From IMG/VR virus record IMGVR_UViG_3300032011_000069, positions 1 through 32,081 of that record: a stretch of 32,081 nt of DNA; one strand, given 5' to 3'. Of this stretch, positions 7,933-15,239 are shown piece after piece (the stretch's first letter is position 1; every line of letters begins with the position of its first letter). The notes below the pieces were generated by a model. It was not told the DNA's origin. It ran no database searches and saw nothing but the letters and a program-made list of their open reading frames with translations. The DNA is from a virus. The position numbers were made by a program, and so were the translations under genes.

Positions 7933-8214
7933 TACAGACGGCCCTTATATAAATAGGCTTTTAAACCCTTCAAAAACTACCCTTAAAAAAAACGTCTGTA
8001 TAATCTGTATTATATAAATATATATATATTTATTTAGTTATTTCTTATAAGAAAAACGCTGTTTCCTTTGTACAGACGGCGTCTGTATCTTGTCTGTATT
8101 ACCTCCGCTTATACAGGCCGAAATTCTGCGGAGGAATGGTCGCGTAGCTCTGGCGGGGGTGGTTCGCGTCTGTACGAACTCGCTTTGTACAGAACCCTGG
8201 TCTGTACGAACTCG
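7933..8214. repeat. iteron-like TACAGACG/CGTCTGTA repeats around AT-rich core
   Basis: The word TACAGACG or its complement occurs at 7933-7940, 7993-8000, 8071-8078 and 8080-8087. The last two form a perfect palindrome TACAGACG-G-CGTCTGTA. Shorter TCTGTA copies occur at 8004 and 8093. A 15-bp direct repeat GTCTGTACGAACTCG (8168-8182, 8200-8214) flanks the inverse TTGTACAGA. The AT-rich core between the first pairs includes a perfect palindrome TTTCTTATAAGAAA (8041-8054). Likely binding sites for the replication initiator or a repressor. Confidence 0.7.
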
Positions 8215-11183: not shown

Positions 11184-12848
11184 TCAAACCTCGAGCTCGA
11201 CGCGTTGGGGGATTTCTCCGATCACGGACGCCTCGTCGTCCAGTCGCCAGAACTCGCCGTCCTGGACGAACTCGAGTTCGCGGTCGTCTGCGACCGCTCC
11301 GGCTCGGAATAGCTCGACGAGCTCGACCGCTGTTTCCGGGAACGCCGAGACGCTGCGACGAGCAAACCAGGTTCTCGACTTGTTCCTGGCGAACGCTTTA
11401 TGCTCGGGGAACAGAAAAACCGAGCGATAGATTTTTCGAATCGCGTCCGGCTTGTCCGGATCGTCGCCCAGGTAGGTAACGCGGACGGAAATCGGGTCGC
11501 CCTCTTTCCAGCCTCGTTTTCGGTGTAACTTCGCGTCGCGATTAAAAACTCGGATTCGTTGTCGTCGCTCGACCGCGTCGGCCTCGAGGACTGCGCCCGT
11601 GTCCGCGTCGTCGATTTTCGTTTCTCGCTCCTGGATTTCGAACTCGACCGGACAGAACCGGCAAACCCTGGCCGACGCTGGGTTCTCCTGGTTGCAACCT
11701 GGGCAAATTTTCATCGGAGCGAAACCGTCGCCGTTTTTCTGCAAACTCCGAACGCCGTAGTTTGCCGCGTCGAGGCAACCGTGGCGCGAGAGGTTGCCGC
11801 CGAAATCGAGTAGGAGGCAGTCGGTTTTCCCTGGCGACTTCCGAAACCCCCGGCCGCAAATTTGCGCGAACAATCCCGGCGAGGTTGTCGCGCGGAGGAC
11901 CGCGACCAGGTCAATGTGGGGAGCGTCGAAACCGGTCGTTAAAACGTTCACGTTTACTAAATAACGGAGCTCGCCGGATCGGAATAGCTCGAGGTTTGTT
12001 GCCCGTTCGAGCGGCATCGACATTCCCGAAACGACTCTCGCGTCCTCGCCGGAAATTTGCCGGATTAAATGGGCCGTCTGTTCGGCGTTCGAAATGGACG
12101 CGGTAAAAATTAGACAATGGTTCCGACCTTCCCGCTCGGCCGTCTCGACAATCTCGCGAACCGCTGCCTCGGTCGCCATTGCGAACCGCGACGCCATTTC
12201 CTCGAGAACAAACTCGCCTCGGTTGATCTTGCAACCGTCCATCGAGACGGACGTTTCGGTTTTCGCGTTGCGAACCGGCGCGATTAGTCCCGCCTGGATT
12301 AGCTCGGGAATGGTCGTCGTATGGGCGACGTGCGAAAACGGTCGTTCCGGTCCGGCGATTAGTCCGAGTTTCATTCGATAGGGCGTCGCGGTTAACCCGA
12401 CCAAGCGAGAACCCGCCAGGCGTTGCATATCGCTAATAAATTTCGCGAACATTGTTTCGTCGAGCGGGTTGATTAAATGGCATTCGTCGACAAAAACGAC
12501 GGCCCGAGCCCCGAACTCTGCCGCCTTTTGGTAAACCGACTGAATCGAACAGAAAACGACGTCCTGGTCGGTATCTCGGCGATTGAGTCCGGCGCAGTTA
12601 ACCCCGAACTCGGACGTCGGGAACTGCCTCGCGTACGCGGCCGAATTTTGCGAAATCAACTCGGCGTTGTGATGCAAAACGAGAGCTCGTTTTCCGCACT
12701 CGATAACCTTTCCGACGGCCTCCGCGATTACCAGGCTTTTTCCCGCTCCGGTCGGTAAAACCAGGGCGGGGTCGCCTTTTGACTTCCGACAGTAATCGTA
12801 CAAATCTCCGAGCGCCTTTTTTTGGTGCTCGTATGGTTCCAACCTCAT
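11184..12848 (-). CDS. DEAD/DEAH-box superfamily 2 helicase (554 aa)
   Basis: ATP-dependent SF2 helicase of the SSL2/UvrB-like type. Motif I is PTGAGKS (32-38), motif II is DECH (121-124), motif III is TATPYR (153-158), and motifs V-VI are VLTTGFDAP and QICGRGFRKSPGK (about 329-341). A zinc ribbon, C382-x2-C385 and C396-x2-C399, follows the helicase core, then a C-terminal domain of about 150 residues. The start at 12848 is set by the strong SD GAGGAGG 8 nt upstream; a longer in-frame reading lacks one. The upstream 66-nt cloverleaf element may regulate it. It belongs to the replication/recombination operon. Confidence 0.88.
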   Translation of the reverse strand: MRLEPYEHQKKALGDLYDYCRKSKGDPALVLPTGAGKSLVIAEAVGKVIECGKRALVLHHNAELISQNSAAYARQFPTSEFGVNCAGLNRRDTDQDVVFCSIQSVYQKAAEFGARAVVFVDECHLINPLDETMFAKFISDMQRLAGSRLVGLTATPYRMKLGLIAGPERPFSHVAHTTTIPELIQAGLIAPVRNAKTETSVSMDGCKINRGEFVLEEMASRFAMATEAAVREIVETAEREGRNHCLIFTASISNAEQTAHLIRQISGEDARVVSGMSMPLERATNLELFRSGELRYLVNVNVLTTGFDAPHIDLVAVLRATTSPGLFAQICGRGFRKSPGKTDCLLLDFGGNLSRHGCLDAANYGVRSLQKNGDGFAPMKICPGCNQENPASARVCRFCPVEFEIQERETKIDDADTGAVLEADAVERRQRIRVFNRDAKLHRKRGWKEGDPISVRVTYLGDDPDKPDAIRKIYRSVFLFPEHKAFARNKSRTWFARRSVSAFPETAVELVELFRAGAVADDRELEFVQDGEFWRLDDEASVIGEIPQRVELEV

Positions 12849-12879
12849 AACGAAAACCTCCTCGCTGTTCTCTCGAAAC

Positions 12880-12954
12880 AAAAAACAAGAGACCGCCGAG
12901 GAGATGCTCCTCGGGTCGTAAACAACTCAAAACGACGGCAACTCGCCCGGTCTC
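12880..12954 (-). ncRNA. 66-nt cloverleaf RNA element before the helicase gene
   Basis: In the gap between the ssDNA-binding gene and the helicase gene, 12889-12895 pairs with 12948-12954 (GAGACCG/CGGTCTC, 7 bp). All the sequence inside folds into three contiguous hairpins: 12896-12914 (8 bp, 3-nt loop), 12915-12936 (5 bp, 12-nt loop) and 12937-12947 (3 bp, 5-nt loop). No base is left unpaired at the junction. On the minus strand TTGTTTTTTG follows, then the helicase SD. It has a tRNA-like outline but no T-loop GGTTCGA and no standard anticodon loop. It may be a branched terminator, attenuator, processing site or small RNA. Confidence 0.55.
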
Positions 12955-12963
12955 CGAGTCGTA

Positions 12964-13440
12964 CTAGAATGGCGACGCCTCGACGTTGCCCCAGGACGCG
13001 GCTTTCGCGGTTGCCGGTTCCGATGATCCCTGCGCGGCGAAAAACTTTTTGACGCGAGCGGTATCGGGGAAACCCTCTTTAACCTCGACGATCGTTTCGA
13101 TCGTCAGCGGCTTGTCGCGGAGCTCCTCGTCGCTCTTTATGTTTTCCAGGCCGATAGCTCGGTAAATCGCGGCGAGCTCGTTTCGTCCAATCTGGACGGC
13201 TTTCTCGGATTGGTTTAACAGGTTCACGTTGTGGAAAACCTTTCGTCCGGAGTGTTCTCCGTCGATAACGTCGAACGTTAGCGACAACATCGTTCCGTCG
13301 TTCCGGTTTCCGCTCTCCTGCGCTTTCCTGGTCAATCGCGTTTCGCTGTCCGAAATCACGACTTGGTAACGACCGGCCGGAACCGGCGTTCGGCTTAGTT
13401 GTTCCGGTTCTTCGCTTGCGTAAAAATTCGATAAATCCAT
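12964..13440 (-). CDS. DUF669-type ssDNA-binding protein (158 aa)
   Basis: The core (about residues 20-105) matches DUF669 phage proteins, which replace SSB in many phages: PAGRYQVVISDSETRLTRK, GTMLSLTFDVIDGEHSGRK, VFHNVNLLNQSEKA and GRNELAAIYRAIGL. The tail is Ala/Ser/Glu-rich and ends in SPF, reminiscent of the SSB acidic tip that recruits partners, though less acidic. It sits directly after the Sak4-like ATPase gene, the usual pair in phage recombination modules. A role coating ssDNA during replication and recombination follows from the family. Confidence 0.8.
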   Translation of the reverse strand: MDLSNFYASEEPEQLSRTPVPAGRYQVVISDSETRLTRKAQESGNRNDGTMLSLTFDVIDGEHSGRKVFHNVNLLNQSEKAVQIGRNELAAIYRAIGLENIKSDEELRDKPLTIETIVEVKEGFPDTARVKKFFAAQGSSEPATAKAASWGNVEASPF

Positions 13441-13482: not shown

Positions 13483-14211
13483 TTAAATGCGTGGATTGTG
13501 CTCGGCGTACTCCGAGAAGTTCCAGAAGTCGAACCGCTCGGGTAAATCGAGGCGACTTTTTGCGACGTGACCTGGTTCCGCCTGGGTAATCGCCTCGACG
13601 CCTCCGGCGTTCTTCGCGATCTTGCGTTCGCGGCCGAAATCCTCCTCGACCTTTCGCTGAAAAACTCGGCGGCGAATGAACAGGACCTCGTCAGAAAACT
13701 CGACGAGCGACGGAGCGTTTCGTTTCGAGAGTTTCGGGCCGTTCGTATCCCAGGACGTCCCGTCCGGATTCTCGATTCGATGGATTCCGGCGTGGGCAAT
13801 CACGACGACCTCGAGCCCGCTCGCCCGAACCGCCGAGAGCGTTCGGAGTAGCTCCTCGAATTTCTCCGAGATTGCGACGTCGCGTTTTCCGAATGCGTCC
13901 TGTACGCCGAGGGCGATAACCTCGCGACGAAAGAGCGTTTCGGCCGCGTCGGCCGAGTCGATAACGACGGTTTTAAAACCGTGTTCGGAGTCGTGCGCGA
14001 GCTCGTTTAAAACGCCCAGGGCGAGTTGTGAATCTGTAATGAGCGGCGTTCGATTTACCTCGAGGTCGTTCGTTCCTGCCTCGTAACTGATAAACAGGGG
14101 ATTCGGAAACCGACTCGCAAAAGTCGATTTCCCGAGGCCCCCGCCGCCGTAAATGGTTGTGACTCGCGGCGCTGAGACAACGCCCGAAATAATCCCGTTG
14201 AGTAAAGACAT
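13483..14211 (-). CDS. Sak4-like RecA-fold ATPase (242 aa)
   Basis: A phage AAA_24/Sak4-type single-strand annealing or recombination ATPase. Walker A is GGGGLGKST (22-30) and Walker B is TVVIDS (81-86). The block EVVVIAHAG (about 134-142) corresponds to the sensor strand, and EDFGRERKIAKNAGG fits the variable end of the family. The length is typical. Proteins of this family work with the DUF669/SSB protein encoded immediately downstream. The start at 14211 is the first Met of the conserved core. Confidence 0.8.
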   Translation of the reverse strand: MSLLNGIISGVVSAPRVTTIYGGGGLGKSTFASRFPNPLFISYEAGTNDLEVNRTPLITDSQLALGVLNELAHDSEHGFKTVVIDSADAAETLFRREVIALGVQDAFGKRDVAISEKFEELLRTLSAVRASGLEVVVIAHAGIHRIENPDGTSWDTNGPKLSKRNAPSLVEFSDEVLFIRRRVFQRKVEEDFGRERKIAKNAGGVEAITQAEPGHVAKSRLDLPERFDFWNFSEYAEHNPRI

Positions 14212-14236: not shown

Positions 14237-14830
14237 TTAAACAGACGTAGCCAAGTCGAGTTTTCGGCGTTGAATTTCGGACCTGGTCGGAATGTCGCGA
14301 GAAACCCACTCGCCCCGCTCGACCAGGACGAGTTCGCCGCTCTCGAAATCCCTCGCCTTGATGTAAAAATCCAGGTCCGCCGGTTTCCCCATTTCGCCGC
14401 GAATCCAGTCGGTTTCCTCCCAGACGTTCAACTCGGCGACGAGCGAGACGGGTTCGACCTCGAGACGTGTCTCGGGCGGGACCCATTTAAAAAACGACTT
14501 CGCCTTTTTGTGGCGATACTGGACCCAGGAGTCGGGGAGGCCGAGGTTCGACTGAGAAACCGAGAGGAGGAGGTTCGTCGTCTCGCGGAGCGTATCGACC
14601 GAATAGCAACCTGGGAGGACGGGTATCTCGGGGAGCGACTCCCGAGGGAACCAGAACCGAACCTCGTCGTAAATGCGGCCCGCGTCGCGTGGCGAAACTC
14701 CGACAAAAGTTCGCCCGTCGTAACAGGCCGCGACGGGAAATCGAGCGTCCCGCCTAACTCCATTCGTACAGAAAACGACCTCGCCGATTTCCGGCTGACC
14801 GCGATAAATTGAAATCCATTTCGTAGGCAT
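14237..14830 (-). CDS. DUF551-like N-terminal protein of early operon (197 aa)
   Basis: The N-terminal 70 residues fit the small DUF551 domain: start WISIYRGQPEIGEVVFCT, a conserved turn, FPVAACYDGRTF and final VRFWFPRESLPEIP. The C-terminal 120 residues contain WVQYRHKKAKSFFKWVPPE and an acidic region with no family I recognise. It is the first gene of the leftward replication operon and follows a 300-bp regulatory region. Its Shine-Dalgarno (AGGGG) lies next to one arm of a 9-bp inverted repeat that could partly hide it. Function unknown. Confidence 0.65.
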   Translation of the reverse strand: MPTKWISIYRGQPEIGEVVFCTNGVRRDARFPVAACYDGRTFVGVSPRDAGRIYDEVRFWFPRESLPEIPVLPGCYSVDTLRETTNLLLSVSQSNLGLPDSWVQYRHKKAKSFFKWVPPETRLEVEPVSLVAELNVWEETDWIRGEMGKPADLDFYIKARDFESGELVLVERGEWVSRDIPTRSEIQRRKLDLATSV

Positions 14831-15082: not shown

Positions 15083-15098
15083 CAGAGAACTTAAAATC

Positions 15099-15121
15099 GT
15101 TTTGACCTAACTTGTCAAAAC
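15099..15121. promoter_or_regulatory. operator-like palindrome, copy 1
   Basis: GTTTTGAC and GTCAAAAC flank a 7-bp spacer, making a perfect 8-bp dyad located 17 bp upstream of the -35 box of the putative early promoter. A related site occurs at 16767-16785. The distance to the promoter suits an activator or a looping repressor. Confidence 0.6.
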
Positions 15122-15151
15122 AAAAAAACCCGACGCCAGGACGGCGTCGGG
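15122..15151 (-). terminator. intrinsic terminator of the integrase transcript
   Basis: CCCGACGCC (15129-15137) and GGCGTCGGG (15143-15151) form a 9-bp GC-rich stem with a 5-nt loop, followed on the minus strand by seven T residues (15128-15122). It lies beyond the tRNA, so integrase mRNA would read antisense through the tRNA before stopping here. Confidence 0.85.
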
Positions 15152-15155
15152 GTTC

Positions 15156-15238
15156 GGAGGATAGGCGAATTGGAAAGCACCCTCATTGGAATTGAGGCGC
15201 GGTGTAAACCGTTGCGGGTTCGAGTCCCGTGTCCTCCG
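15156..15238 (+). tRNA. tRNA-Ser(GGA), class II, probable attachment site
   Basis: Acceptor GGAGGAT pairs with GTCCTCC (7 bp, one G-U), with discriminator G73 as required for serine. The anticodon arm is CCTCA-TTGGAAT-TGAGG with anticodon GGA. The long variable arm has a CGGT/ACCG stem. The T arm is GCGGG-TTCGAGT-CCCGT. The D arm is poor (A at position 8, short loop, weak stem) and no CCA is encoded. The integrase gene ends 1 bp beyond its 3' end, the usual arrangement for tRNA-directed integration. It could be a working phage tRNA, an attL/attR copy, or a partly decayed copy kept for its attachment-site half. Confidence 0.75.
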
Positions 15239-15239
15239 C

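Follow-up and report, generated by a model that had tools for sequence, protein, structure and literature searches.

The trp leader is a ribosome-controlled attenuator that adopts mutually exclusive folds, one arm of which lies near a stop codon. In E. coli, ribosomes repress an intrinsic terminator located a few nt past a stop codon, and its efficiency grows with the spacing from that codon (tR2 study, PMC4824070). DUF669 proteins are phage single-strand DNA binding proteins (SSBs) encoded beside sak4 (PMC5928155). Here we describe a cloverleaf-shaped element lying between a DUF669 ssb gene and a helicase gene in the 32-kb record of an uncultured bacterial virus (the window, the whole stretch of 32,081 nt that was analysed). 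Like the E. coli terminators, this element combines a GC-rich structure with an immediate U tract, and it sits within an operon, a few nt past one gene's stop codon and ahead of another gene that runs in the same direction. The E. coli terminators, however, are simple hairpins, whereas a four-way junction is predicted here, with a last-formed 3' arm common to two of its helices (P4 and P1). The element also resembles a tRNA in having a closing stem of 7 bp and three arms, but it has no unpaired junction bases, its loops include one of 12 nt and one of 3 nt, and it lacks a CCA end.

The sak4-ssb-helicase operon is encoded on the minus strand. It includes an unknown gene (14240-14830), followed by a Sak4-like AAA_24 recombinase gene, the first gene of the sak4-ssb module (13483..14211; AAA_24 E 5e-31; PHROG Sak4-like ssDNA annealing protein E 2e-31), and by the DUF669 phage SSB gene (12967..13440, stop codon TAG at 12964-12966; Pfam DUF669 E 8e-12; PHROG single strand DNA binding protein E 2e-23). 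The element comes next, then a superfamily-II DNA helicase gene (11184..12848, ATG at 12848-12846; ResIII and Helicase_C; PHROG DNA helicase E 3e-69), an HTH gene and a primase-like gene, after which an AT-rich palindrome, ATATAAATATATATAT, is found at 8012-8036. A reading of the sequence alone (the sequence-only reading) had placed the element between two replication genes, which is nearly right: one neighbour is the DUF669 SSB gene, itself paired with the Sak4-like gene, and the other is the helicase gene. The 115 nt that separate the DUF669 stop codon from the helicase ATG form the largest gap within this operon. No promoter-like site was found in this gap, so the helicase would be read from upstream and its expression should depend on readthrough; a terminator located here therefore has to be leaky. 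The helicase Shine-Dalgarno (SD) sequence AGGAGG is apparent at 12857..12862 on the minus strand. The longer motif CGAGGAG has 24 sites in the window (6.5 expected), at least one of which is the helicase SD.

The core of the cloverleaf occupies 12889-12954, the minus strand being the mRNA sense. Read on the mRNA strand from 12954 to 12889, it is GAGACCG GGC GAGTT GCC GTCGT TTTGAGTTGTTT ACGAC CCGAGGAG CAT CTCCTCGG CGGTCTC. Four helices, numbered in mRNA order, meet at a junction with zero unpaired bases: P1 (7 bp; 5' strand GAGACCG, 12948..12954; 3' strand CGGTCTC, 12889..12895), P2 (3 bp, loop of 5 nt; GGC-GAGTT-GCC, 12937..12947), P3 (5 bp, loop of 12 nt; GTCGT-12 nt-ACGAC, 12915..12936) and P4 (8 bp, loop of 3 nt; CCGAGGAG-CAT-CTCCTCGG, 12896..12914). 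The gap-free junction, its 7-bp closing helix and its hairpins of 8, 5 and 3 bp are thus as first described, and all 23 Watson-Crick pairs exist. The 66 nt that had been counted outside the loops in fact include them (46 paired and 20 loop nt), and only 12889-12954 of the original span of 12880-12954 is the core, 12880-12888 being the U tract on the minus strand. The P1 3' strand abuts the P4 3' strand to form a fully paired 3' arm of 15 nt that, as in the stem of an intrinsic terminator, ends right before a U tract (TTGTTTTTT, 12880..12888, minus strand; 7 U among the first 8 nt); here, the stem is branched. A terminator pattern scan did not list the cloverleaf as a terminator, because of this branched form. 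On the mRNA, the core is followed by TTGTTTTTTG, then by the helicase SD and ATG, confirming the reported succession of a U-rich tract and the SD. On the 5' side, a 9-nt linker (12955..12963, minus strand) containing CGACTC separates the stop codon from the cloverleaf, and the first base of P1 lies 9 nt after the ssb stop codon, within the ribosome-sensitive range.

The core RNA was predicted to fold with a minimum free energy (MFE) of -32.2 kcal/mol (z -5.4). Shuffled controls, which the sequence-only reading had suggested as a check, folded worse, none of 200 being equally good. DNA parameters gave an identical fold (z -5.9), and z weakened to -2.6 once flanks were added. In a scan of 2136 minus-strand segments of 75 nt, the cloverleaf ranked in the top ten by z. 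Gap-free junctions with at least three branches were rare among 21,334 segments from both strands of the record, and the cloverleaf was the most stable of them.

A close relative, L083 (Sak4-like protein 91% and helicase fragment 87% identical), has the element in the same ssb-helicase gap. It also has, at about 1180-1901, an extra gene resembling the PP-loop/PAPS-reductase type (family assigned by eye) between the unknown and Sak4-like genes, which is absent from the window and from another relative, L165. When the L083 core was folded alone, its MFE structure was the same four-way junction, only weakly more stable than shuffled sequences (z -1.9). All 22 shared pairs are kept despite six substitutions at paired positions: two substitutions in the P1 5' strand (GAGGTCG in L083) yield G-U pairs on the mRNA strand and two mismatches on the opposite strand, while P2 and P3 each show one compensatory G-C to A-U double change. 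P4 and the P1 3' strand are unchanged. The pairing is thus maintained in a close relative, and covariation is present in the form of two compensatory pairs from one comparison, window with L083. Under a random-substitution model, Monte Carlo sampling put the chance of all pairs surviving at 3e-4 without bias, rising to 2e-2 when transition bias was extreme; an alignment shuffle test (126/500) was uninformative by design, having two rows only. Sequence identity between the window and L083 is 26/26 in the 3' half of the element, 58% in the 5' half, 54% in the following leader and 80% in the helicase gene. The P2 loop GAGT and the linker motif CGACTC are also common to both, and the L083 P3 loop is 10 nt longer, with an additional 5-bp helix.

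Beyond this pair, the cloverleaf form was not encountered again. A covariance model built on the two sequences found no third member among 84 sources on the helicase side, drawn from the window and from viral and neighbour loci, no further member in 63 DUF669 loci or in P4-matching loci, and three weak matches at chance level over 392 genomes of one phylum; its other matches, to GC-rich coding DNA and the minus strand of helicase genes, were discarded. A pattern scan for P4 plus the P1 3' strand returned L083's contig only, and 17-nt P4 matches elsewhere were adjoined by no SSB, helicase or Sak4-like gene. No match to the element was obtained by blastn in 50,697 phage records. The sequence of L165, 91% identical over the Sak4-like gene, stops short of the element. 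The cloverleaf form is thus known from two sequences only.

Its position, on the other hand, is not peculiar to these two. Among 19 DUF669 genes with less than 60% protein identity to one another, 14 are followed by a strong hairpin (perfect, -10 kcal/mol or better, at most 75 nt from the stop codon), versus 8 of 76 ends of other genes at those loci (Fisher p 1e-7), and the conclusion was no different with an over-strict hairpin finder. Tails were compared at 19 loci with a hairpin, of which 14 count as independent under the protein criterion: the next 8 nt past the hairpin GC core were 54% U against 21% expected, and they included at least 4 U in 14 of the 19. Named phages had a post-DUF669 hairpin in five cases out of five. 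The hairpins of MiCath (Pseudomonas phage; CCCGCCTTCGGGCGGG TTATTTTTC), HD01 (Acinetobacter phage) and vB_PmaS-R3 (Paracoccus phage) occupy the same place after the ssb stop codon, inside an operon and with a U-rich tail, but are unbranched and unrelated in sequence to the cloverleaf. In the window itself, the strongest hairpin among 21 gene ends is that at the end of ssb. The cloverleaf therefore stands where a terminator-like hairpin recurs after ssb, which explains its position. Downstream of the DUF669 stop codons of L168-L230 and L234-L238, terminator-like hairpins recur inside the operons of widely different phages.

The U tract, the position after the SSB gene and the hairpins found there in other phages favour the branched attenuator among the options originally offered. 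Computation shows the fold and that one relative retains it, a signature of mRNA-sense RNA, a U tract, the genes on either side and terminator-like hairpins recurring after DUF669 genes. These features suggest that the cloverleaf is probably, though by no means certainly, a leaky branched intrinsic terminator at the 3' end of the ssb portion of an early sak4-ssb-helicase operon. From them we infer actual termination, a fraction of readthrough and a purpose in setting an expression ratio. RNA polymerase, having passed sak4 and ssb, would reach the U tract as the 15-nt 3' arm closes the junction; some complexes would terminate and the remainder would read through into helicase and primase. SSB transcripts, their 3' ends resistant to nucleases, would then be abundant and helicase transcripts less so. 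The cloverleaf of this lineage may have derived from the simple hairpin that other phages have at this place, P2 and P3 being putative insertions on the 5' side of the terminator stem. If the element does terminate, an intrinsic terminator can still function when additional arms divide its closing helix to give a full four-way junction. A wider rule is also indicated: DUF669-family phage ssb genes tend to end in an intra-operon terminator-like hairpin, which would be an easy means of producing more SSB than helicase and is testable in cultured phages.

Several observations weigh against a leaky terminator: the U tract is poor in L083, where the stem is followed only by ATGTTTCC (4 U of 8), the L083 core is barely more stable than its shuffles, only two sequences carry the cloverleaf, the pattern scan missed it in its branched form, and a competing structure prevails in L083 once the natural 5' flank is included. 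The first of these would suit RNA processing or 3'-end protection, whereby a host RNase cuts or is blocked at the structure and the ssb and helicase messages differ in half-life without termination. This explanation, which we judge rather unlikely, is consistent with the retention of the structure in L083 despite its lack of a good U tract, with the conserved P4/P1 duplex and with some post-DUF669 hairpins of other phages that have no U tails; yet a U-rich tail follows most post-DUF669 hairpins, TTGTTTTTT is present in the window, and P4 is shorter than would be expected of a classical RNase III site. Conservation of sequence in the 3' half and in the P2 loop GAGT could also reflect a site on the mRNA that a protein of the phage or the host recognises, for example a translational operator of the helicase bound by SSB. 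The P4 3' arm is moreover complementary to the helicase SD in the window (-13.2 kcal/mol), but this complementarity is weak in L083 (-7.3 kcal/mol) and the element turned up in no further copy, leaving a protein site very unlikely. Sequestration of the SD by the P4 arm was itself rejected, since it is not kept in L083. A DNA-level element (cruciform, origin structure or palindromic operator) would draw on the good folding of the single strand with DNA parameters and on P4, a conserved 19-bp inverted repeat that is a perfect palindrome. This palindrome, however, has no second copy in the window, and the two G-U pairs of L083 P1 (G-T in DNA) are mismatches in DNA and on the other strand rather than the Watson-Crick pairs of a cruciform. 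Being pairs on the mRNA strand only, they argue that the fold acts as an mRNA-sense RNA and not as a DNA cruciform, and the cruciform put forward by the sequence-only reading, like any DNA-level element, seems more improbable still. The cloverleaf outline and the 7-bp acceptor-like stem could finally suggest a stand-alone small RNA or a degenerate tRNA-like RNA, to which we give almost no credence: the outline had rightly been said to lack tRNA hallmarks, there being neither a CCA end nor tRNA junction nucleotides, the gap has no promoter-like site, ARAGORN gave no match at the cloverleaf, and no Rfam family matched it at the gathering threshold (best sub-threshold score, 13.3 bits against 48).

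The competing structure of L083 raises the further question of a control by ribosomes. With the 5' flank, L083 is predicted to prefer over the cloverleaf a 10-bp hairpin in which the linker pairs with P1/P2, and the pairing probability of P1 rises from 0 to 0.85-0.97 when a stretch of roughly 9 nt or more, counted from the stop codon, is masked. In the window, a competing 11-bp helix is predicted in transcripts too short to contain the P1 3' strand, the linker pairing with the P3 loop; the full transcript reaches the cloverleaf without masking. A ribosome-dependent alternative fold is thus predicted clearly in L083 and as a transient only in the window, and the competing folds could either amount to a switch gated by ribosomes or be coincidental. 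In translation-coupled attenuation, a ribosome on the ssb stop codon would mask the linker and let the cloverleaf form, so that helicase would be reduced only while ssb is translated. The restoration of P1 by masking in L083, the 11-bp alternative in shorter window transcripts and the CGACTC linker common to both point in this direction; against it, the window needs no masking to form the cloverleaf, the alternative helices are not the same in the two sequences, and chance alone often produces competing folds. We therefore hold this coupling to be distinctly unlikely. The likeness to the trp leader lies in the mutually exclusive folds and in the arm near a stop codon, and it is strong in L083. 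The differences are that there is no leader peptide here, translation of the full upstream gene being what would control the outcome, and that switching is predicted only and is unequal between the window and L083. That a four-way-junction terminator would be a ribosome-gated switch, with SSB synthesis itself setting the SSB-to-helicase ratio, is a correspondingly doubtful proposal from these folding models.

Elsewhere in the record, a tRNA-Ser(GGA) gene (15156-15239, plus strand) lies mid-record beside the integrase gene and is kept, in alignment, in L083 and L165. A canonical strong terminator with a 10-bp stem and seven T (15129-15151, minus strand) is found after the integrase/tRNA region; neither L083 nor L165 has it as a unit, which suggests a fast turnover of terminators in this lineage. 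The hairpin TTTTGAC...GTCAAAA (15097-15123, minus strand), immediately upstream of a promoter-like site (15082-15053), is conserved in L083 and nearly so in L165, and is a possible operator.
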